From a virus: DNA of 40,500 nt. The notes beneath the pieces were generated by a model. It searched no databases, was not told where the DNA came from, and saw only the letters and a program-made list of their open reading frames with translations. The number at the start of each line of letters is the position of its first letter. Within the stretch, counting starts at the first letter, position 1. Made by a program: the position numbers and the translations under genes. Shown in pieces: positions 12,818-38,289 of this stretch. The DNA lies in the IMG/VR virus record IMGVR_UViG_3300030085_003024, positions 1-40,500 of that record. One strand, given 5' to 3'.

Positions 12818-12933
12818 ATAAAATAAATTCAATTTTCAGAAAAATATTACATATATATTATATGTGGTTATATAAAAAACACTTAAATAAACGAATAATG
12901 AAAAATGATTTTGGGAGAAATGAAGAATGGTAA
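12814..12933 (+). CDS. Small basic peptide, 39 aa
   Basis: The ATG overlaps the stop of the cytidylyltransferase as ATGA, and the ORF ends 7 bases inside the endonuclease gene. It reads MNKINSIFRKILHIYYMWLY, then a basic end. The overlaps at both ends support a real coupled gene, but nothing is recognised and the region is AT-rich, so chance is possible. Confidence 0.4.
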   Translation: MNKINSIFRKILHIYYMWLYKKHLNKRIMKNDFGRNEEW

Positions 12934-13874
12934 ATAACAAAATAGGTTATGCTTGTATCTCAATGCAACTTAGTTATCCTACTAAGTATGGTAATAAACC
13001 AAGAGGTACACAACCAATCACAACAAATCGTAGTATGATTCGTAGAACCTTTGATGAGAAAGGTGTGGATTATGCATCAGAATTATGTTTACAAAATGTA
13101 AAAGATTTACATCAATTAATTCAATGGAATATTATGAATGGTTATGATTTCTATCGTTTGAGTTCTGATATGGCGCCGTGGAAAACAGAATATGAGTGGA
13201 GTGATTTGAAAGATATTGATGAGATTAAAAGATGGTTTCATTCGGCTGGTACAATGGCTAAAACACACGGAGTTAGATTAACTGCTCATCCAGGCCCTTT
13301 CAATGTATTGGTATCACCAAACGAGAATGTAGTTGAGAACACTATTAAAGATTTGACTATTCACGGAGATGAGTTTGATATGATGGGTTTATCTCGTACA
13401 CCTTACAACAAACTAAACATACATTGTAATGGTGTGTATGGAGATAAGTTATCTGCTATGGATAGATTCTGTAAGAACTTTGAACGATTACCTGAATCAG
13501 TACAAACAAGATTGACTGTTGAGAATGATGATAAAGCAAGTATGTATTCAGTAAAAGATTTGATGTACATCCACGAGAGAATTGGAATACCAATTGTGTT
13601 TGATTATCATCATCACAAATTCAATACAGGTGATTTATCAGAACAAGAAGCGTTAGAACTTGCTATCTCTACTTGGCCTGATGATATTGTTCCTGTAGTT
13701 CATTATTCCGAATCTCGTAGTAAAGAACAATTGGATGAAAAGATTAAACCACAAGCACATTCAGATTATGTGGTTGATTACATTGATACCTATGGCCACA
13801 ATGTAGATATTATGGTTGAGGCTAAACACAAAGAATTGGCTGTAGATAAATACAAGGAGTTACATTTTGGATAA
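12927..13874 (+). CDS. uvsE: UV-damage endonuclease (UvsE/UVDE)
   Basis: 315 aa, TIM-barrel UVDE family, which nicks DNA 5' to UV photoproducts and some abasic sites. Family segments in order: RLSSDMAPW, LTAHPGPFN, LTVENDD, VFDYHHH, VHYSESR, AHSDYV and VDIMVEAKHKE, which carry the metal-binding His/Glu/Asp residues. Length fits the family (about 300). The protein would repair phage DNA damaged by sunlight. GGGAG lies 11 bases before ATG 12927. The last codons overlap the next gene. Confidence 0.95.
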   Translation: MVNNKIGYACISMQLSYPTKYGNKPRGTQPITTNRSMIRRTFDEKGVDYASELCLQNVKDLHQLIQWNIMNGYDFYRLSSDMAPWKTEYEWSDLKDIDEIKRWFHSAGTMAKTHGVRLTAHPGPFNVLVSPNENVVENTIKDLTIHGDEFDMMGLSRTPYNKLNIHCNGVYGDKLSAMDRFCKNFERLPESVQTRLTVENDDKASMYSVKDLMYIHERIGIPIVFDYHHHKFNTGDLSEQEALELAISTWPDDIVPVVHYSESRSKEQLDEKIKPQAHSDYVVDYIDTYGHNVDIMVEAKHKELAVDKYKELHFG

Positions 13875-18085: not shown

Positions 18086-19768
18086 ATGTGTGGAATCATA
18101 GGTGGTAATAAATTTAAAAACGATACGAAAATCCAACAAGGGTTATTGAGTATTATACATAGAGGAAAAGATGATAACACCATTTTCTCATTTGATAACA
18201 ATATGTATCTCTCGCATAATCGTTTATCCATCCAAGATTTAAGTGAAGTTGCCAATCAACCGATGGTTTCCGATGATTCGAGATATTACCTTGCATTCAA
18301 TGGTGAGCTATGGAAAAGTTCCTTTGATAAGTTTGATAAGAAACTTCGTAAACTTTATAACTTTAAAACCGAGAAAAGTGATACCGAACTTTTACTTTAT
18401 TATTTAATACACAACATCAAAAATATCGGTCGTTCACTTCGTGAACTTGATGGTATGTTTGCGTTTTCTTTGTACGATAGTGAAACCAACACCACTTACT
18501 TGGGTAGAGATTTTATTGGTAGGATGCCATTGTATTATCATTATGATGGTGAGAAGTTTGGATATTGTAGTGAGGCTAAAGGATTAAGAGTTGGGTTAGA
18601 TACACCTTATTATAAAATAGATGTAAAGAGTAAGTATCATAAAATGGCTGATGTGAAAGATAAGGAAACAATATATCCAGTCTTACCTGGTCATTTAATT
18701 ACATTTGAACCACATCCATTTGTAACTGATTCGTATGAAATAAAAGAAGAAGTTTGGTATACATTTAAAGATGAGTATGATAAAGATAATCAAAGTTATT
18801 ATACAAGAGATGAAGAACAATTCAGACATTTCGAACAAGAGGATAAAGGTGTTGATTACTATGTGAATGGATTCAAAGATATCGTGAATGAAGCTGTAGA
18901 TAATGAATTAATTAGTGATGTACCTGTATGTACAATCTTAAGTGGTGGTATTGATAGTACTATTATCACTTATCTGTTATCAAAAAAATTAAAGAATGTT
19001 GAGGCATTTGTAGTGAATGTAAATCCACTTCGTAAATCTAAATACAAAGATGATTTATATTATGCTCGAATGGCCGCAAAAGAATTTGGTATCAAACTAC
19101 ACGAAGTAAATGTTGATAGAGAAGATATCGAAAAGAAACTAAAAGAAAGTATATGGGCAAGTGAAACATTTAAATGGACTCAAGTATCACCAGCAGTTGC
19201 ACAATTATTCTTGGCAGAAGAGATTGAGAAACAAGGATATAAAGTTGTGTTTGGTGGTGAGGGAGCTGATGAGATATTTGCTTCATATGGTGATGTTAAA
19301 AGATTCTGTTGGAATGAACCTGTACATTGGCATCAAAAAAGAATTAATTTATTAAATGGATTACATAAAAGTAATTTAGTTCGTACAAATAAATCTATGA
19401 TGTATGGTGGAACCGTAGAATTAAGAACACCATTTTTAAATAAAGAGGTTATAGACTTTGGATTAAGAATCCCTACAAAATATCGTGATGAAAACTATGA
19501 AGTAAGAAAAAACTTCGAATACAAAACAACAGAACATTCTGATGGAAATGTAATGAAGTTTATTTTAAGAAAGGCTTTTGAGAATGATATATCTGAAGAA
19601 TTATTATGGAGACCAAAGAAAACATTCCAAGTTGGTTGTCATACAGATTACTTAAAAACAGAAGAACCAATGATGTATAAAGTATTTGGTGAGTTGTTTG
19701 TAAAGGGAAATGGTTATACTGAATATCTATCAAAATCAGATAAAAAAATAAATTTAGAAAAAAAATAA
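18086..19768 (+). CDS. asnB: Asparagine synthase (glutamine-hydrolysing)
   Basis: 560 aa, close to E. coli AsnB in length. The N-terminal Ntn glutaminase has the catalytic Cys2 (MCGIIGG), RLSIQDLS, AFNGELW and LDGMFAFSLYD. The C-terminal synthetase has the PP-loop LSGGIDST (285-292) and GGEGADEIF. It would use glutamine, aspartate and ATP to make asparagine or, in diverged members, amidate other carboxylates. HRGKDD replaces the usual HRGPDD near residue 26. The gene follows the methyltransferase by 3 bases. Enzyme class is secure; the true phage substrate is open. Confidence 0.92.
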   Translation: MCGIIGGNKFKNDTKIQQGLLSIIHRGKDDNTIFSFDNNMYLSHNRLSIQDLSEVANQPMVSDDSRYYLAFNGELWKSSFDKFDKKLRKLYNFKTEKSDTELLLYYLIHNIKNIGRSLRELDGMFAFSLYDSETNTTYLGRDFIGRMPLYYHYDGEKFGYCSEAKGLRVGLDTPYYKIDVKSKYHKMADVKDKETIYPVLPGHLITFEPHPFVTDSYEIKEEVWYTFKDEYDKDNQSYYTRDEEQFRHFEQEDKGVDYYVNGFKDIVNEAVDNELISDVPVCTILSGGIDSTIITYLLSKKLKNVEAFVVNVNPLRKSKYKDDLYYARMAAKEFGIKLHEVNVDREDIEKKLKESIWASETFKWTQVSPAVAQLFLAEEIEKQGYKVVFGGEGADEIFASYGDVKRFCWNEPVHWHQKRINLLNGLHKSNLVRTNKSMMYGGTVELRTPFLNKEVIDFGLRIPTKYRDENYEVRKNFEYKTTEHSDGNVMKFILRKAFENDISEELLWRPKKTFQVGCHTDYLKTEEPMMYKVFGELFVKGNGYTEYLSKSDKKINLEKK

Positions 19769-22722: not shown

Positions 22723-23894
22723 TTCCAAAAACAAAAGATATAGATGATACAATAAAAGAACAATATAAAATAGAGGCTAAGTTCTTTCAAGATTACGATG
22801 TTCCACCACAATGGAAAGACCAACCAATTGCTGGCAAGGAACAAAACCTTGACCCATTCAAAAAAGTGAATTGGAAAAATATTTTTGATGAAAACTTCAA
22901 AGAAAATTATAGGTTTAAAAAGGTTGGTGATGAATTAGTATGGGCTTACTTTATAAAAGAAAGTAAATCTAATCGTGGTATTAAAGATGTGGCAGATGAT
23001 GTAGTGGGTAGAATCCAACCTGGTGATTTACAGATTACAAGATTTGCATATCATCCAGATTATTTAGATGACTTATATCAAGCAATACAACAAGAAAGAA
23101 CTGAAGAGAATCAGTTCCTAACTTCATTACGAGATATTTGGTTTACAGATATTAATATGGAATTAGAAGAAGATAAAAAACTTATGGAACTATTAGGTGG
23201 TAAACACTTATCAAGTAAAGTAACTGCTGTAGGTTCTGAAGTTCGTGGTATATATTATTGTGGTGATAAACAACAACCTGGTTATTCTGATTACGAAGAT
23301 ATTACAATTAAACGAATGAAGTTTGAATCAATAAACGAACAAGAATGTGCTGAGTTAGTTGAAGAAATTAAAAACTATCAAGATGCATTAAATCCTTGGT
23401 CGTATGATGGTATCAATGGAAACTATGGTGGTCCTGAAAAAACTTGGTACACTATTGAGATAGTTCCTATTAAACCAGATTCACCTATTGATACAAAAAT
23501 TTTAGAGGCACTTCCTAAACTACAAAAGATTGTAGATACAATTACAGAAGTTGGTAAGTGTACTTGGTTGGTTATAACAAGAGTTGAGCCTAACAAAGGT
23601 TTGATTATGAGACACTCAGATATCGGATACGATAGTTGGGATTATAAAACAAAGAATGGGCCAAAAGTTGGTAATTCTTTGAGAGTTCATTTCCCTATTC
23701 AAGTTGATGATGATTGTGTATTTACACAAGTTGGTTTAGATGGTGCTACAGAAGAACATCGATTGAAAACCGCTAACTATTATTATATGGATAAAAGAAA
23801 ACCACATTGGGTGGAGAACAAATCCGATAATTATAGATTCCATGTCATTATGGATATCGAGTGTGAACAGAAACATTTAGATGCCTTACTTTAA
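22713..23894 (+). CDS. Aspartyl/asparaginyl beta-hydroxylase-like oxygenase
   Basis: 393 aa. The C-terminal 130 residues fit a 2OG-Fe(II) oxygenase of the Asp/Asn beta-hydroxylase group: MRHSDIGYDSW (H301, D303), then LRVHFPI, and PHWVENKSDNYRFHVIMD (H365, R375). The first 250 residues are not recognised and may bind the substrate. Enzymes of this type add a beta-hydroxyl to Asp/Asn or related molecules. The gene overlaps the dehydrogenase before it and the PLP enzyme after it, so it works in the same unit. Substrate is unknown. Confidence 0.75.
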   Translation: MVLIPKTKDIDDTIKEQYKIEAKFFQDYDVPPQWKDQPIAGKEQNLDPFKKVNWKNIFDENFKENYRFKKVGDELVWAYFIKESKSNRGIKDVADDVVGRIQPGDLQITRFAYHPDYLDDLYQAIQQERTEENQFLTSLRDIWFTDINMELEEDKKLMELLGGKHLSSKVTAVGSEVRGIYYCGDKQQPGYSDYEDITIKRMKFESINEQECAELVEEIKNYQDALNPWSYDGINGNYGGPEKTWYTIEIVPIKPDSPIDTKILEALPKLQKIVDTITEVGKCTWLVITRVEPNKGLIMRHSDIGYDSWDYKTKNGPKVGNSLRVHFPIQVDDDCVFTQVGLDGATEEHRLKTANYYYMDKRKPHWVENKSDNYRFHVIMDIECEQKHLDALL

Positions 23895-24732
23895 TTTCGA
23901 TACACCTATAGAAGAACATACTTGTGGTGAAAACAAAGTATGGGTTAAAAGAGATGATTTACTTAATGGTGATTTAGATTTACCACCGTGGGCAAAGATG
24001 GAAGGTATCAAACGAGTATTAGAAAGTGGAGATTTAGATAAATCAATACCTATAATACATTTATCTGTTCGAGTAAGTTATAGTGGATGGGCACTTGCTT
24101 ACATCGGAAGAGAATTAGGATATGATATTAAGATTGCTTATCCTGATTCAAAAAATTATCCAAAAGAAATATTGGATAAAGTAAAACAATATGGAGCTGA
24201 ATTAGTTCCTGTGAAACCAAATCTACTTGATATTGTAAACACTTATGTAAAAAGAGTTGCGGATGAAAAGGGTTATCAACAAATGCCTTATGCATTTAAT
24301 CATCCAGCTTATATTGATTACTTTAGTGAACGAATGAAAACAATACAAGAAGAATATGATTTCGATAATATTGTTATAAATGCTGGAAGTGGAGTTACTG
24401 GTTCAGCCTTATTAAAAGGTTTTATGGATTATGATAACTTCATTCCACAAAAAAAGGCTTACTTGATTACTACAGCAGGAAAACAATCAATAGAACGAAT
24501 GTTAAAAAAGTGGGATATGTATCATCATAAAAATGTATTCATATCAGAAACAGAACACGATTTCTTTGATGGTATGGATTGGTTGGAAACACCATTTCCT
24601 TGTAATGGCAATTGGGATAAGAAAGCTTGGTTTTGGTTACAAAATAATAAATTAGAGGGCAAGACTTTATTCTATAATCTCGGTGGAGAAAATATGGAAA
24701 ATATTGCGAAAAAAGACTTGACTTTAATATAA
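23881..24732 (+). CDS. PLP-dependent enzyme, fold type II (ACC deaminase-like)
   Basis: 283 aa. N-terminus VWVKRDDLLNGDLDLPPWAKMEGIKRVLE matches the KRDD...K-x-R region of D-cysteine desulfhydrase/ACC deaminase enzymes, with K39 the candidate PLP lysine. The phosphate-cup-like NAGSGVTGS is at 167-175. Family members are usually about 330 aa, so this is short. It could deaminate or eliminate from amino acids, perhaps those made by the upstream oxygenase or synthase. Starts inside the upstream gene (14-base overlap); its last codons are promoter P4. Confidence 0.75.
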   Translation: MPYFNFDTPIEEHTCGENKVWVKRDDLLNGDLDLPPWAKMEGIKRVLESGDLDKSIPIIHLSVRVSYSGWALAYIGRELGYDIKIAYPDSKNYPKEILDKVKQYGAELVPVKPNLLDIVNTYVKRVADEKGYQQMPYAFNHPAYIDYFSERMKTIQEEYDFDNIVINAGSGVTGSALLKGFMDYDNFIPQKKAYLITTAGKQSIERMLKKWDMYHHKNVFISETEHDFFDGMDWLETPFPCNGNWDKKAWFWLQNNKLEGKTLFYNLGGENMENIAKKDLTLI

Positions 24733-28632: not shown

Positions 28633-29109
28633 ATGACTAAAAAAGACCTTGTAAAAATAATACAAGAAGTTGTGAGAAGAGAAGTACAAAAAGAGGTTAA
28701 GAAACTATTTATTAAGGAGAATAAATCGTCTCTAAAATCTCTTGCACCAAAACCCAAGAAAGTTACAAAACCAATTCAGAAAAAAGAACAAGTTCAATAT
28801 ACAGATAATTTAGAGTTGAATAAAGTTCTAAATGAAACAGTAGGTTTAAGTAAAGGTGATTCAGAGTTTGATGAATATCCAACAATGGGCGGTGGAGCAT
28901 TTGATTCTTCAAGAGCTACCGAATTATTAGGATATGGTGATTCAATGAGAGCTGGTGGTGATAAAGAAACACAACGAAATATGATAGCCGCACAAACATT
29001 AAGAGAAAAGAATGTAAGTGTAAATGATGTACCTGAATCATTAGTGAATGCTTTATCAAGAGATTATAGTGATTTAATGAAACACGATAAATTCAAGAGT
29101 AAAAAATAA
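28633..29109 (+). CDS. Virion-region protein, 158 aa
   Basis: An N-terminal Lys/Glu helix (LVKIIQEVVRREVQKEVKKL), then a flexible part and a Gly-rich segment (PTMGGGAFDSSRATELLGYG). AGGAG lies 6 bases before the ATG. Located between the hub and gp25, so likely a baseplate or assembly protein; family not recognised. Confidence 0.6.
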   Translation: MTKKDLVKIIQEVVRREVQKEVKKLFIKENKSSLKSLAPKPKKVTKPIQKKEQVQYTDNLELNKVLNETVGLSKGDSEFDEYPTMGGGAFDSSRATELLGYGDSMRAGGDKETQRNMIAAQTLREKNVSVNDVPESLVNALSRDYSDLMKHDKFKSKK

Positions 29110-29564
29110 TGGCTGAAAATGTAACCACAACAAATAATCCATCTGTAAGAACTATCAATGATGATAGTGATGCATTTTTTGGATTAACTTTACCACTTGA
29201 GTATAAAGGTGGTAGTGTTGGGTTCTTTCATAGAGCTTCTACACTTCTTGAACAAGCTAGAAGTAATATAAAAAATCTTCTACTTACAAGAAAAGGTGAA
29301 AGGGTTGCTCAGCCAAATTTTGGTACGGATTTATTTATAATATTATTTGAACAAATAGATGGTTCACAAGATATACCAGATAGAGTAGAACAAGCGATTA
29401 GAGAAGCTGTTGATTTCTGGTTACCATATGTTACAGTAGAAGCTGTGTTTACATCTTTTGAACCAGATTTAAATCAAGTAATAGTTGAACTAACATTTTC
29501 TGTGAATGTAAATGATGAAGAAGCAATTGATACAATCACATTTGAATTTAATGGAGTAGGATAA
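29109..29564 (+). CDS. 25: Baseplate wedge protein gp25-like
   Basis: 151 aa with the gp25/GPW signature: NIKNLLLTRKGERVAQPNFGTDLFIILFEQ, followed by REAVDFWLPYVTVEAV and a beta-sheet end (VIVELTFSVN). gp25 is the conserved wedge protein that nucleates sheath assembly. It overlaps both neighbours by one base. Confidence 0.93.
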   Translation: MAENVTTTNNPSVRTINDDSDAFFGLTLPLEYKGGSVGFFHRASTLLEQARSNIKNLLLTRKGERVAQPNFGTDLFIILFEQIDGSQDIPDRVEQAIREAVDFWLPYVTVEAVFTSFEPDLNQVIVELTFSVNVNDEEAIDTITFEFNGVG

Positions 29565-31534
29565 TGCCAATAGATGTAGAATACGGAACAAATATAAAAA
29601 AAGAGAAAAAGAAAGTAAAGTATCTTGGTAGAGATTTTAGTTCAATAAGACAGAACCTTATTGAGTTTGCTAAATCATACTATCCAACAGCGTATAATGA
29701 TTTTAATGAATCATCACCAGGTATGATGATGATTGAAATGGCTGCGTATGTTGGTGATGTATTATCATACTATGTTGATAATCAATATCGTGAAACTTTA
29801 TTACACTCTGCAGAAGAAAAGAAAAACATTTTTAAGATTGCACAATCATTTGGATATAAACCAAAACTTAGTTCACCTGCGAGTGCAGTTTGTGATTTCA
29901 GTATAGAAGTTCCAGCTGTAATAGAGGGTGATACATATGTACCAGATACTAATTATGCACTTAGGGTAAATGCTGGTAGTATGTTTTCAAGTAGAAGTGG
30001 TAGAACATTTAGATTAAAAGATGATATTAATTTTAAATCCAAAACAGCTTTTGATGCTCGAGTAGATAGAATTAATAGATATTCTGGTGATACACCATCA
30101 CATTTTAAATTAACAAAAAAAGGTATCGTTGAAAGTGGTAAAAGAAATACAGAAACATTTGTATTTGGTAGTGCTGTAAAATTTGATAAAGTACTTTTAA
30201 ATAAACAAAATGTTATTGAAATTGTATCAGTAGTTGATGATGATGGAAACACTTGGTATGAAGTTCCTTTCTTGGCACAAGATACTGTATTTGTTGATGT
30301 AGAGAATAACTCTACTAACACACCTGATGTATCTGCACAATTAAGTTCAGCACCATTTATGTTAAAATTATTAAAAACATCAAATCGTTTCACTACATAC
30401 GCTCGTAGTGATGGAAAAACAGAATTAAGATTTGGAGCAGGTATTAGTTCAAATGCTGATGAAGAGATTATACCTAATCCAGATAATGTTGGTAGTTCAC
30501 TTGGTACAGGTTTATCTAAACTTGATGATTCCTTTGACCCAAGTAATTTCTTAAAGACAAAAGCTTTTGGACAAGCTCCAAGTAATATTTCATTGACTGT
30601 AACTTATACTTATGGTGGTGATATTAAAGATAATGTTGTTAGTGGAGAAATTTCAAGTGCTGATAATTTAACTCTTACTTTAAATGAAGAGGGATTAGAT
30701 GCTACTGAAGTTCAGAATACAAAACAAGGTTTAAGTATCACAAATCCTGAACCTGCAACAGGTGGTTCTGAAGGTGAAACACCAGAACAAGTTAGACAAA
30801 ATGCATTAGCATATTTTAATTCTCAGAATAGAGCAGTTACACGAGAAGATTATGTTACAAGAATATATTCATTACCACAAAAATATGGTGCAGTTGCAAA
30901 AGCTTACATTGTTCAAGATGAACAATTAGAATTAAATACAAAAACAATTATAAAAAATAATAAAATCAGTCTTAATAAAGGAACTCAAATTGTTCCTAAT
31001 CCATTAGCATTGAATATGTATTTATTAGGATATAATTCAAACAAACAATTAGTAACTTTGAATGAAGCAGTTAAACAAAATCTGAAAGTTTATCTTTCAC
31101 AATACAGAATGCTTACTGATGCTATAAATTTAAAAGATGGATATATTGTTAATGTATCTTGTAGATTTTCAATTGTTACACAAAGAGGATATAATAAAAA
31201 TGAAGTATTGTTGAAATGTGTAGAAGCTGTAAAGAAACATTTCACTATTGATAATTGGCAAATTAATCAACCGATTGTATTAAGTGATATTGCTTATCAA
31301 ATCTCATTAGTGGATGGTGTGGCAAGTGTAGTTCCACCTGAAGAAGATAATCCTAATAAAAATATTGTGGTTATAGAAAACAAATATAAAACCGCAGATG
31401 GATATAGTGGACATGTTTATGATATAACATCAGCTACAAAAGATGGTGTTATTTATCCATCATTAGACCCAAGTATATTCGAACTTAAATACCCGAATAC
31501 AGATATTGAGGGTAGAGTAATAGGAGACATTTAA
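29564..31534 (+). CDS. 6: Baseplate wedge protein gp6-like (baseplate J)
   Basis: 656 aa, close to T4 gp6 (660). The N-terminus GRDFSSIRQNLIEFAKSYYP, DFNESSPGMMMIEMAAYVGD and LSYYVDNQYRETLL is the usual gp6/baseplate J start. The central part contains TPEQVRQNALAYFNSQNRAVTREDY, another family mark. gp6 forms the inner ring of the baseplate. One-base overlaps on both sides show a tight operon. Confidence 0.93.
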   Translation: MPIDVEYGTNIKKEKKKVKYLGRDFSSIRQNLIEFAKSYYPTAYNDFNESSPGMMMIEMAAYVGDVLSYYVDNQYRETLLHSAEEKKNIFKIAQSFGYKPKLSSPASAVCDFSIEVPAVIEGDTYVPDTNYALRVNAGSMFSSRSGRTFRLKDDINFKSKTAFDARVDRINRYSGDTPSHFKLTKKGIVESGKRNTETFVFGSAVKFDKVLLNKQNVIEIVSVVDDDGNTWYEVPFLAQDTVFVDVENNSTNTPDVSAQLSSAPFMLKLLKTSNRFTTYARSDGKTELRFGAGISSNADEEIIPNPDNVGSSLGTGLSKLDDSFDPSNFLKTKAFGQAPSNISLTVTYTYGGDIKDNVVSGEISSADNLTLTLNEEGLDATEVQNTKQGLSITNPEPATGGSEGETPEQVRQNALAYFNSQNRAVTREDYVTRIYSLPQKYGAVAKAYIVQDEQLELNTKTIIKNNKISLNKGTQIVPNPLALNMYLLGYNSNKQLVTLNEAVKQNLKVYLSQYRMLTDAINLKDGYIVNVSCRFSIVTQRGYNKNEVLLKCVEAVKKHFTIDNWQINQPIVLSDIAYQISLVDGVASVVPPEEDNPNKNIVVIENKYKTADGYSGHVYDITSATKDGVIYPSLDPSIFELKYPNTDIEGRVIGDI

Positions 31535-33294: not shown

Positions 33295-36200
33295 ATGTTA
33301 AATTACGGATTAAAAGAAAAAGATAAAGTTCAATTAGAACATCCTAAATCAGTTTATACTGGTTGGGGTAGAGATTCTCGTGATTATTTAAAACTACTTA
33401 TTTATAATTTAAATGATGAGAAAATAAATGAAATAGTTCTTCGTCCAGCAGATGTTGTATTCACTACTGATACCACAATAGATATTGATGTAGGTTCTCA
33501 CATTAGGGAGTTAGGTTATCGTGAAGGTGAATTTAAATTTCAATATTTGTTTTTCAGATATATGGCTGGTAATGAAGATACAGTTTTTATAAATCAAAAA
33601 GGATTCATTAATGTTGGTAAAGTACAAACACGAGTTGTAAATGGTAAACCTAAATATTATACCGTAAAGGGTGGTAAAGCTAGATTACAAGATGAATTAG
33701 AAGTTAAAGAATTAAAATATGTTATAAAAGAAATATCACCTAATAGAGATGAAATAAAAGTTGATGTTCAAGATATTAGTAATTTAAAATATAGAAGAGA
33801 TTTCGCCGCTATAAATAAAGATATAGTTTATACACCTAAAAAAATTAATCCAACGGATGGCGAAATAAGGTTTGATAAAAATGACCCAAATGTTTTAATA
33901 TTTGAACCAGCTACTAAAGAAAGAGGATTTACAGATTCTATGGTGGGTGGACAAATAGTTATTCGTGGTATGTATGAATATTTAAAAGTGGAACCTGAAA
34001 CAAAGGAACCAATACCTACACCAGACTTACCAACAGATGAAGATAATAAACCACAACCTATTAAACCATTTTTAGATATTATAGGTTACAAAGACCCTAT
34101 AAAATCTTTATTTAAACCTAAAGAATTAATAAGACAAAATAGATACACTGCTTTAAGTTCGGCAGAAGAACAAGAAGCGTATGAAGAGTATAATAGAAGT
34201 GATACATATGGTAGTGTTTGTTTTGTTGGTGATACAAAAATAAAATTAAGTAACAATCGTACTATACCTATTCGTTTAATGAAACCAGGTATGAAAGTTA
34301 AAACTCAACAAGGGTACGCAAAAGTATTAAAAGTATTAAAAGATAATAAACCTTACGGAGATAAATTAGTAAGATTTGGTAAACTCATCACAACAGACCA
34401 TCATCCAATTTATCATAAAGGTAAATGGTTTATGGCTAATGAAATTGGTGAAGAATTTTTATCAGAACCATTATCAGTTTGGAATTTATTATTAGATAAA
34501 CATCACACAATATACGCTAATAATGTTGTTTGTGCTACAATGAATAAATGGAAATCCGATGATACTAAACATTGGAGTGAAAGATTTTTTGAATCAAGAA
34601 ATAGATTTAAGATGTTACGACCTGCTGGACCAATACCTGGTGGTGGTTTAACAGGTGGTGGATTTGGTGAAGATGGATTTGAAAGTCAAGCTGATTTGGC
34701 ATCAGAAGAGGGACTTGGATTAACTGTAGGTTCAGGTGTATCAGCATTTACACCAAATGAAATTATTGTAGAAGAACAATTAGAACCTGTAACAAGAGAA
34801 TTTATTGATGATATATCAGAAAAAGATGATATAATAGATGACTTTCCACCAGACCCAAGTTTTCCAAGACCATTTCCTGATGAGGAAATAAAAAAATTAC
34901 CTAAATCACCAACACCTGTACCAATAGATTATCACGCTAAAATTACAGAGGTATTGGATTACAATAGAGTTCGTGTAGATACTTCATATGAAGATGGTGC
35001 TGATGATGCTGGACATAGTGGAGAAGATAATTCAAGAAAAAGATTTTCTGATTGGTATGTAAACTTCAGAAAAGCTAAAGTAGGTAGATTAAACACTTAT
35101 ATGGTTAGTGATGAGGGATTACATTTATGTTTAAGTGTATTGGATTCACCAGATGTAATTGATACAGATGATGTGGATTTACGACCTCTTTCAGACCAAA
35201 CTGCTAGATATTTTAAATTATATGAACCATTACCAGATTCATTAGAAAAAGGTGATTTGGTTTATTTTGCAGAAGAAAAAATGGAACCATATTCAGATGT
35301 AATTAGATTAATTCCATTTATTGATGATGATAGAGATGAGTTATTTCTTAGAGTTCCTAATGTAGAATCTATGGATAATCCAATTACCTTTAGAGGTACT
35401 AATTTTAAAAACAGAACGGATTTAATCGGTACTGATGATAGCACAAAAGAAAGTATTACAAACTCAGTTTTCTCAAGTAGTTTATTAGATGTACAAGTAA
35501 ATGTAGATTATCAAAAAAGAACAGATAAATTTGGTGTTGATGTTACTGATTATGGATTTAGTAACTTTGTTAATTTTAGTTCAGCTAAACTTCGTTTAAA
35601 AAACTTTAAAAAGAAACTTGAATTAATAGAATTTTATACAAGTTCAAGTTCAGCGATTAATGATGTAACAGGTTCATCGGATACTAAGAGTGAGTTTGAT
35701 TTAAATAAAAGAAGAATTATAAATTCATTTGACCCTTATGAAAATTTCTTATATACCGTTTCATCAAGTTACGCTTCAAGTTCAGTAGGTGAGTTTTATG
35801 ATTCATCTTGGCCAAAATCAAACTCAACATCACCATATACATTAAACGCTGTTACAAGTTCTGAGGGTATTTCTTGGTATAATACTTGGATTAATTATGC
35901 GGAAGATTATGATAGAGGTAATCGTGATAGATTAGTGAATAATTTACCAACACATATTACTAATGATACACAAAATAAAGTATTTATAGATTTTATGGAT
36001 ATGATAGGTCATCAATTTGATGAAACTTGGACTTACTTAAAACACTTTACAGATGTAAATGAAAGAGTGAGTAAAGTTAGTGAGGGTATATCAAAAGATA
36101 TTGTACAAGAAGTTGCTAAAAGTATGGGATTTGAAGTTATCAATGGTAATGATTTAATAATCTTACCTGAATATCTGTTAGGGAAAGATATAGATGGTGG

Positions 36201-38289
36201 AGCTTTATACGAATCACCACAAGAAACGGTAACGGAAGAAGTGTGGAAACGAATACTTGCTAACTTACCTTTCTTTATGAAAACAAAAGGAACAAAAAGA
36301 GCTATTAAAGGATTGTTAAATTGTTACGGAATACCAAGTTCCATATTACGAGTTCGTGAGTATGGTGGACCTGATAAAGGAACAGCTGTTGGATATGAAG
36401 TAAAAAGAAAATTCACATATGCTTTAGATTTTAAATCAAATGAATATCTAAGATTGCCGTGGAAAGATACTGCTGATAGTATTAAACCAGAAACAATAGA
36501 ATTTAGATTTAGAAGTCCTGAATCTAAAAATCAAGTTATTGTTGAATCAGAAGATAAATGGGCAATAGAATTAACTGATAATGGTGAACCTGATGATAAA
36601 GGTAGATTACAATTTAGTGTTAGTGGAAGTGGTGCAACTGCATTTATAACATCTTCAGTATTACCATTTTATAATGATGATATGTGGAGTGTGATGTTAA
36701 CCAGAAAATCAGCCAGTGGAGCTGATTTAACTGCAGATACTGCTACACAAAATATTACATATGAATTAACTACAAGACAATACGATTCAACAAGAGAAAC
36801 AATTTTATATTCTGATTCATCAAGTATATCAACAAACACTTCTGCAATCAATACAGCATTTGCAGCAGATACAGATTTATATATTGGTGGACATAATGAT
36901 AAATTCCACAATACAAGATTTAGTGGTTCATTAATGGAGTTCAGATTATGGAGTGAACCATTATCACAAAGTGTATTTGAGAATCATGTCCGAACACCAA
37001 AAGCATATAATGGAAACACATCATCATCAGCTTATGATAATTTAGAACTTAGATTAACCTTGAGTGATAATGTAAACTTAAATACTTCACCAAGTGCTAA
37101 TGATAATAAATCAGGAAAGAATTTATATCACACGAGTGCGAGTGCACATAGTTTTAGTGGAAACTCTTACAGAAGTTTAGTTGATTTAGAACAATTAAAA
37201 GTTCCTGATATTGGTCCAAATAGAAGAAATGCAACTAAAATTAGAATTGAAAATACATCTTTGACTGGATTGTTATCACCAAATATAAGAAGAGAACAAT
37301 CATCACAAGATTTAGCACCATTAGATAGTAATAAACTTGGTATTTATTTCTCACCTGTAGATGTTATTAATGAAGATATTATGTATTCAGTTGCAGATTT
37401 AAATATTGATGATGAGATTGGAGACCCAAGAGATTTATATGAACCTACATATAGAGGTTTGAGAAAAAAACAAAGAGAATATTTTAAAAAATATAGTGGA
37501 ACAAATAATTTTTGGGATTATATGAGATTAATCGGTTTTTATGATGACAGTATATGGAGACAGATTGGTAAAATGGTTCCTGCTAGAGCAAATTCTACTT
37601 TAGGGTTATTGATAGAACCAAATATTTTAGAAAGAAGTAAACAAGTCGTTGGTAAGAAACCAGAAGTTAAAAATGTATATTATGAAAATGCTAATCATTT
37701 TGAATTTGGATTACAATTAAGTTCAAGAGAAACAAGTTCAATTGGACACCAACCATTTAGTTTTGAAGCAGAACTACCACAATATGAAACTGAGTTAGAT
37801 TTAAATGGTAGTGATTTCGTAAGTGGTTCTACTGGTAAATTAGGATTACCAACATTAATTAGATTAAATGAAATAGACCATACGAGTCCGTATGGAAACT
37901 TTTATGCAACTGCGAGTATTACCTTTGGTGGTATTACTTCAGATTTTACAGACTCACTACAAGTATTTGTAAGTGGTTCAAGAATTAGTGAACATAATGA
38001 GATTGAAGTTCCATTTTACACAAGTTCACTTTCAGTATCAGAAGCAAATGGATATGGTGATTTTCCACAATATAAAAATAATGGAAATTATCAATATAGT
38101 AGTTCATTTGAACCAACAGATATTCAAAGTATGGCTTATGATGGAAATTTATTTAGAGCATTTGTTCAAGGAACTTTATTAACAAAAGATAACACTATAG
38201 ATGGTAATGAACCAGTAGAGATAACTATAACTTCACCAGGTAAACTTGTAACACAGAATTCAGGTGAATCCAAACTAAAAGTTGATTAA
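33295..38289 (+). CDS. Giant baseplate protein (gp7-like) with Hint and LamG domains
   Basis: 1664 aa. Beta-rich N-terminus (about 1-300), a Hint domain at 309-415, a Pro/Gly/acidic linker (about 430-540), and a second beta region. Near 986-1015 is the ILANLPFFMKTKGTKRAIKG/NCYGIP segment common to large marine-myovirus baseplate proteins. A LamG/concanavalin-like domain follows at about 1040-1250 (SNEYLRLPWKD, WAIELTD, LYIGGHND, SLMEFRLWSEPL), then a C-terminal fibre-like region. Gene position corresponds to T4 gp7. LamG domains usually bind carbohydrate. The ATG follows the previous stop by 3 bases, with no strong Shine-Dalgarno. Confidence 0.82.
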   Translation: MLNYGLKEKDKVQLEHPKSVYTGWGRDSRDYLKLLIYNLNDEKINEIVLRPADVVFTTDTTIDIDVGSHIRELGYREGEFKFQYLFFRYMAGNEDTVFINQKGFINVGKVQTRVVNGKPKYYTVKGGKARLQDELEVKELKYVIKEISPNRDEIKVDVQDISNLKYRRDFAAINKDIVYTPKKINPTDGEIRFDKNDPNVLIFEPATKERGFTDSMVGGQIVIRGMYEYLKVEPETKEPIPTPDLPTDEDNKPQPIKPFLDIIGYKDPIKSLFKPKELIRQNRYTALSSAEEQEAYEEYNRSDTYGSVCFVGDTKIKLSNNRTIPIRLMKPGMKVKTQQGYAKVLKVLKDNKPYGDKLVRFGKLITTDHHPIYHKGKWFMANEIGEEFLSEPLSVWNLLLDKHHTIYANNVVCATMNKWKSDDTKHWSERFFESRNRFKMLRPAGPIPGGGLTGGGFGEDGFESQADLASEEGLGLTVGSGVSAFTPNEIIVEEQLEPVTREFIDDISEKDDIIDDFPPDPSFPRPFPDEEIKKLPKSPTPVPIDYHAKITEVLDYNRVRVDTSYEDGADDAGHSGEDNSRKRFSDWYVNFRKAKVGRLNTYMVSDEGLHLCLSVLDSPDVIDTDDVDLRPLSDQTARYFKLYEPLPDSLEKGDLVYFAEEKMEPYSDVIRLIPFIDDDRDELFLRVPNVESMDNPITFRGTNFKNRTDLIGTDDSTKESITNSVFSSSLLDVQVNVDYQKRTDKFGVDVTDYGFSNFVNFSSAKLRLKNFKKKLELIEFYTSSSSAINDVTGSSDTKSEFDLNKRRIINSFDPYENFLYTVSSSYASSSVGEFYDSSWPKSNSTSPYTLNAVTSSEGISWYNTWINYAEDYDRGNRDRLVNNLPTHITNDTQNKVFIDFMDMIGHQFDETWTYLKHFTDVNERVSKVSEGISKDIVQEVAKSMGFEVINGNDLIILPEYLLGKDIDGGALYESPQETVTEEVWKRILANLPFFMKTKGTKRAIKGLLNCYGIPSSILRVREYGGPDKGTAVGYEVKRKFTYALDFKSNEYLRLPWKDTADSIKPETIEFRFRSPESKNQVIVESEDKWAIELTDNGEPDDKGRLQFSVSGSGATAFITSSVLPFYNDDMWSVMLTRKSASGADLTADTATQNITYELTTRQYDSTRETILYSDSSSISTNTSAINTAFAADTDLYIGGHNDKFHNTRFSGSLMEFRLWSEPLSQSVFENHVRTPKAYNGNTSSSAYDNLELRLTLSDNVNLNTSPSANDNKSGKNLYHTSASAHSFSGNSYRSLVDLEQLKVPDIGPNRRNATKIRIENTSLTGLLSPNIRREQSSQDLAPLDSNKLGIYFSPVDVINEDIMYSVADLNIDDEIGDPRDLYEPTYRGLRKKQREYFKKYSGTNNFWDYMRLIGFYDDSIWRQIGKMVPARANSTLGLLIEPNILERSKQVVGKKPEVKNVYYENANHFEFGLQLSSRETSSIGHQPFSFEAELPQYETELDLNGSDFVSGSTGKLGLPTLIRLNEIDHTSPYGNFYATASITFGGITSDFTDSLQVFVSGSRISEHNEIEVPFYTSSLSVSEANGYGDFPQYKNNGNYQYSSSFEPTDIQSMAYDGNLFRAFVQGTLLTKDNTIDGNEPVEITITSPGKLVTQNSGESKLKVD
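34219..34539 (+). other. Hint (intein/hedgehog-type) domain inside the giant protein
   Basis: Residues 309-415. Block A: C309-FVGDTKIKL (N-terminal nucleophile Cys). Block B: ITTDHHPIYHKGKW, the T-x-x-H-type catalytic stretch. Blocks F/G: VWNLLLDKHHTIYANNVVCAT. There is no homing endonuclease. The position of the intein C-terminal Asn and following Cys/Ser/Thr is occupied by Thr415 and Met416, so full splicing looks impossible; N-terminal thioester formation or cleavage remains possible. Confidence 0.85.

Follow-up and report, generated by a model that had tools for sequence, protein, structure and literature searches.

A Vint-type Hint domain in a predicted phage baseplate protein appears to occupy the place of a gene boundary

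The described domains closest to the one considered here are the Vint domain, the Hog domain of Hedgehog, the bacterial intein-like (BIL) domains together with BIL2 (BUBL1) of Tetrahymena, and the inteins of phages. Vint (PF14623; Tetrahymena structure 8R2C; PMC2362128) forms the C-terminal part of eukaryotic proteins with the order VWA-Vwaint-Vint, while the known bacterial intein-like domains and BIL2 cleave or conjugate instead of splicing. Phage inteins, known from terminase, helicase and RNR, carry the splice-junction residues and sit in replication and packaging enzymes (PMC3556154, PMC5259590). The first step of the intein reaction uses Cys1, Thr B:7, His B:10 and position F:4 (PMC4031507). 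Phage proteins are already known to contain Hint domains in the form of inteins, and BFVD includes predicted proteins of uncultured phages that have one; none of the open-access papers searched describes such a domain in the baseplate proteins of phages or in the place of a gene boundary. The domain described below is embedded in a 1664-aa protein encoded in the window, the whole stretch of viral DNA that was analysed (40,500 nucleotides; Table 1).

The gp25-like and gp6-like wedge genes lie upstream of the 1664-aa ORF, and a relative of its C part, with no Hint domain, is found in Flavobacterium phage immuto in the same gene order and in Microcystis phage Mel-JY01 in a similar one; because of this gene order, the protein is most likely a contractile-tail baseplate protein. 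It has 71 homologous loci among the viral contigs. Pfam recognizes two domains in it, Vint and Laminin_G_3, and PHROGs contains no family for the protein or for its Hint domain. The predicted model of the C part is poor (pLDDT 56), and the laminin-G match alone was used from it. A duplication of the N domain within the C part, hinted at by an iterated profile, proved to be an artefact (profile-profile probability 0.3%; no match with a clean N profile). Elsewhere the window encodes a UV-endonuclease UvdE (12927-13874; Pfam E=2.4e-60), and, as parts of a phage genome, a protein with a match to phrog_16728 and a weak QueC-like match (18086-19768) and a threonine-dehydratase-like protein (23881-24732).

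Table 1. Features of the 1664-aa ORF, its putative processing site and the upstream wedge genes (window coordinates)
Feature	Position	Strand	Basis or remark
gp25-like baseplate wedge protein	29109..29564	+	PF04965 E=1.1e-10
gp6-like baseplate wedge subunit	29564..31534	+	phrog_6 E=1.5e-22
Whole ORF: predicted 1664-aa baseplate protein that contains the Hint domain	33295..38289	+	ORF call
N domain, residues 1-239	33295..34011	+	Separate protein in split-gene relatives
N-side linker, residues 240-308	34012..34218	+	dN/dS ~1; last six residues conserved
Hint (Vint-type) domain, residues 309-417	34219..34545	+	Pfam Vint, fold match, dN/dS 0.27
Cys309 (codon TGT), expected N-S acyl shift nucleophile and putative cleavage point	34219..34221	+	45/45 Cys
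Block B, T367-D-H-H370 (Thr B:7, His B:10)	34393..34404	+	T367 and H370 each 45/45
Block F, N397 (position F:4), D401, H404	34483..34506	+	Each 45/45
A414-T415 in place of the intein terminal His-Asn; Leu/Met next, no +1 nucleophile	34534..34539	+	45/45, 44/45, 45/45
Conserved post-Hint segment, last residue Met440	34546..34614	+	Separate C gene of L063 begins at the equivalent Met
C-side linker, residues 441-544	34615..34926	+	dN/dS ~1
C part, residues 545-1664	34927..38286	+	Separate protein in split-gene relatives
Laminin_G_3 / concanavalin-like domain, residues 1115-1225	36637..36969	+	Pfam E=1.9e-6; fold matches

Residues 308-417 match Pfam Vint ('Hint-domain') with E=2.1e-19, scoring 70.4 bits where the curated cut-off is 27, along positions 1-114 of the 166 in the profile, and the same profile matches all 16 aligned relatives. 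A profile built from the phage Hint domains finds, by sequence, the crystallised Tetrahymena Vint (E=3.8e-7). In an AlphaFold model of residues 1-440 the Hint part has a pLDDT of 86-95 in most ten-residue blocks and the N-side linker is poor; Foldseek with the Hint model returns BIL2 at the top, along with Vint, many inteins and Hedgehog, with E values down to 4e-8. The match is not due to chance. An initial annotation, made from the window's sequence, had proposed a Hint domain in a baseplate protein, with blocks A, B and F/G, lying between the N domain and a flexible linker; profile and predicted fold agree with it on the domain, and the blocks and the placement are as it described.

By profile and fold this is a Vint-type domain, sharing with Vint also motifs A and B and the lack of a His-Asn terminus. 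It differs in being internal, and the VWA and Vwaint domains by which Vint genes are recognized (PMC2362128) are absent from the 1664-aa protein, with no VWA detected by Pfam. With Hedgehog it shares the Hint fold (1AT0 is among the fold matches), an N-terminal Cys, the TxxH motif and a restriction to the first step, but the two are distant in sequence and the phage protein has no signalling domain and no sterol-recognition region; Pfam gives no Hog-family match above the cut-off in the 1664-aa protein or its 16 aligned relatives, and the post-Hint segment is short. The bacterial intein-like domains and BIL2 have the fold in common with it. The solved BIL2 (a C1A-N143A construct) has Asn at its C-terminal end, whereas the phage domain never ends in His-Asn, and the terminal His-Asn with C-terminal cleavage that characterizes BIL type A is likewise missing. 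Phage inteins resemble it as Hint folds within phage proteins, but where an intein has its terminal His-Asn and a +1 Cys, Ser or Thr, this domain has Ala-Thr and then Leu or Met, and where an intein interrupts a contiguous host protein, the Hint-less homologues here are separate genes, or fusions with other linkers. The domain belongs to the Hint superfamily by its fold (AlphaFold/Foldseek), its Cys nucleophile and its block B TxxH; it is neither a Vint gene in the VWA sense, nor an intein, nor a BIL of type A. Uncultured Caudovirales proteins in BFVD, some of them named after structural modules such as collagen repeats (A0A6J5QMR4) or FnIII (A0A6J5NYB8), are also Hint fold matches; compared by fold match only, such Hint-containing phage proteins give no sign of being the same protein as the one described here.

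All the Hint-bearing ORFs found encode this same baseplate protein, with the domain at the identical place, and the protein belongs to uncultured marine phages. INPHARED phages and PLSDB plasmids yielded no relatives of the Hint domain, and the genome_contigs set yielded a single locus with a relative, L164 (NZZP01000021.1), on a contig from a Gammaproteobacteria MAG. L164 may be a phage contig binned with that MAG, and is a possible pointer to the host. At another Hint-bearing locus, L021 (2947-3873 and 3804-7766), the frame is broken shortly before the Hint Cys; the break is probably a single indel from assembly or sequencing, because no ATG precedes the Cys in the second, downstream frame.

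Conservation of individual residues was counted over 45 distinct Hint-bearing sequences. Block A is C309-F310, block B is T367-x-x-H370-P371, block F is V-W-N397-L-x-L-D401-x-x-H404-T405 and block G is A408-N-N-V-V-C-A-T415; Cys309, Thr367, His370, Asn397, Asp401 and His404 are identical in all 45. Motif alignment assigns Thr367, His370 and Asn397 to the intein positions B:7, B:10 and F:4, with Asn at F:4 instead of the usual Asp. The flank of the presumed scissile bond is also conserved: Asp303 is kept in 37/45, Tyr or Phe at 305 in 44/45 and Val308, the residue at -1 to Cys309, in 42/45, so that the pattern before the Cys reads [D/F]-x-[Y/F]-x-x-V. Beta-branched residues at -1 slow thioester cleavage in many inteins; this Val and the Asn at F:4 both weigh against cleavage here.

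At the other end of the domain, Ala414, Thr or Ser at 415 (Thr itself in 44 sequences) and Leu or Met at 416 are each constant in 45/45. The terminal His-Asn is missing throughout and, by profile alignment, from the solved Tetrahymena Vint as well; none of the 45 has the residues needed for transesterification or Asn cyclisation, and the Hint domain contains no endonuclease. The initial annotation had noted both the missing His-Asn and Cys/Ser/Thr and the missing endonuclease, correctly, and its view that splicing is unlikely accords with the absence of the later-step residues in every relative; its description of the splice junction as a lesion does not hold, given a terminal motif that is constant in the family and a solved Vint that likewise lacks His-Asn. 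With the first-step residues invariant and the later-step residues missing throughout, the domain appears, from its residues, to be equipped for the N-terminal N-S acyl shift alone, as is Hedgehog, and not to be a damaged intein. N-terminal thioester chemistry is the likely activity, as the initial annotation had proposed. A degenerate intein remnant would indeed show a Hint fold with no endonuclease and no His-Asn, but the constancy of the terminal motif, the lowest dN/dS in the protein and an alignment of the domain free of gaps make that origin exceedingly improbable.

Those last figures come from 34 full-length proteins. Within the protein, pairwise identity is highest in the Hint domain (0.68), which has zero gaps and a dN/dS of 0.27, compared with 0.30-0.46 for the N and C parts and about 1.0 for both linkers; the dN/dS values, obtained by the simple NG86 method where dS is near 1, are usable as ranks. 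The Hint domain is the part of the protein under the strongest constraint, and since it evolves most slowly while the flanking linkers are near 1.0, it is in use. Conservation would also be expected of a structural domain, and the fold could be an inactive spacer or docking element retained in an uncut baseplate protein, a reading that gains from the existence of 16 near relatives fused without Hint. We consider this unlikely: a structural role needs no nucleophile, and yet Cys309, Thr367 and His370 never vary; conservation extends to the residues just before the Cys, in a linker that is otherwise neutral; and the position of the domain matches a gene boundary in relatives. The initial annotation had itself named, as a refuting outcome, homologues in which this stretch is a plain structural domain, and what was seen was the opposite, with the strongest constraint, an invariant catalytic set and a gene-boundary position.

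That boundary is seen in five near relatives (L030, L032, L034, L062 and L063), in which the N and C parts are two genes and there is no Hint. The genes overlap in a TAATG stop/start in four of them, and in L034 are separated by a 23-base gap. The stand-alone N proteins have 314 aa in L030, 302 in L032, 291 in L034 and 302 in L062; the N fragment predicted before the Cys in Hint-bearing relatives is 268-314 aa. More distant relatives are also split, mostly with TAATG, and have longer N proteins. The C protein of L063 begins MARSDRAKQ... and, from this initiating Met onward, is collinear with the Hint-bearing L152-L160 clade (58-62% identity over about 80 residues; pairwise E 1e-26 to 2e-32), whose counterpart starts at the Met directly past the post-Hint segment (RNRFR, then MGTSDRARQ...). 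This collinearity places the right side of the Hint cassette, as aligned, at the exact position of the gene boundary; the right-hand junction is precise in L063 only, and on the left the swap has no sharp edge, the N-protein tails being unlike the Hint-side linkers.

The same Met, Met440 in the window's protein, is kept in 44/45 sequences, and its correspondence to the start of the separate C gene in L063 would suit an internal translation start that makes the C protein, with the long chain as a minor product. Against this, L046 lacks the Met, no clear ribosome site is seen by eye before Met440, and the constancy of the Hint active site would go unexplained; we regard such a start as very improbable.

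In the 16 near relatives fused without Hint, the linkers differ or other segments are inserted. No autoprocessing domain was detected by Pfam in the five Hint-less proteins scanned, four of them fused. Separation is therefore either not needed in every lineage or is achieved differently there, and these fused lineages give the strongest reason to doubt that it is needed. A different insert of about 200-300 residues takes Hint's place in 12 fused relatives (L036-L045, L068), and L050, L051 and L053, also fused and Hint-less, have a long extra segment that widens the N-to-C gap to about 780 residues; the segment of L050 has no Pfam match.

The C-part tree puts the Hint-bearing proteins at two separate positions, and split and fused lineages nest between these. 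The AU test rejects a single Hint clade (p=3.3e-5), which also appears in 0/200 bootstrap trees of a second, careful C-part tree; the short N-domain tree does not reject it (p=0.075). Because the C-part tree rejects a single Hint clade, Hint and the gene split probably replaced each other in evolution, in one direction or the other, the root of the tree being unsure.

We favour, as reasonably probable on the sequence comparisons, the reading that the Hint domain divides a precursor post-translationally into two baseplate proteins, a separation that relatives achieve with a gene boundary. The 1664-aa chain would be the precursor, two baseplate proteins linked by a Vint-type autoprocessing domain. 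Cys309, activated by His370, Thr367 and block F, would attack the Val308-Cys309 bond in an N-S acyl shift and leave a thioester with Val308. Because the domain lacks what transesterification and Asn cyclisation require, this thioester would most likely be resolved by water or another small nucleophile. Each precursor would yield one 308-aa N protein and one 1356-aa Hint-C protein, a strict 1:1 ratio, and relatives would arrive at the same two-protein state through two overlapping genes. The sequences show the domain and its fold, the invariant active-site residues, purifying selection and the coincidence with the gene boundary; that the bond is cut, that water or another small nucleophile ends the reaction, and that both products enter the baseplate, we infer.

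The same first-step residues would also serve a thioester resolved by the amine of another chain, so that the N domain is not simply released but joined to an adjacent protein of the baseplate by a covalent isopeptide or ester bond. The Hint domain would then be an assembly-triggered conjugating device, passing the N domain to its partner's amine with no separate enzyme. The Val at -1 may disfavour plain hydrolysis; Hedgehog attaches a sterol, and in BIL2 of Tetrahymena, which heads the fold matches, the upstream domain becomes conjugated to a lysine (PMC8616854). In split-gene relatives, on the other hand, the N protein is free and ends in an ordinary C terminus, and therefore a covalent bond is not needed there; both the transfer and the device it would constitute seem to us rather doubtful.

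If the cleavage is real, a Hedgehog-type self-cutter does at the protein level what a stop/start overlap does in the genes of related phages, and two baseplate proteins are made in equal number. It would also give Vint-type Hint domains a role, left open in the paper found on them, and would provide a natural, testable case of gene fission swapped for autoproteolysis.
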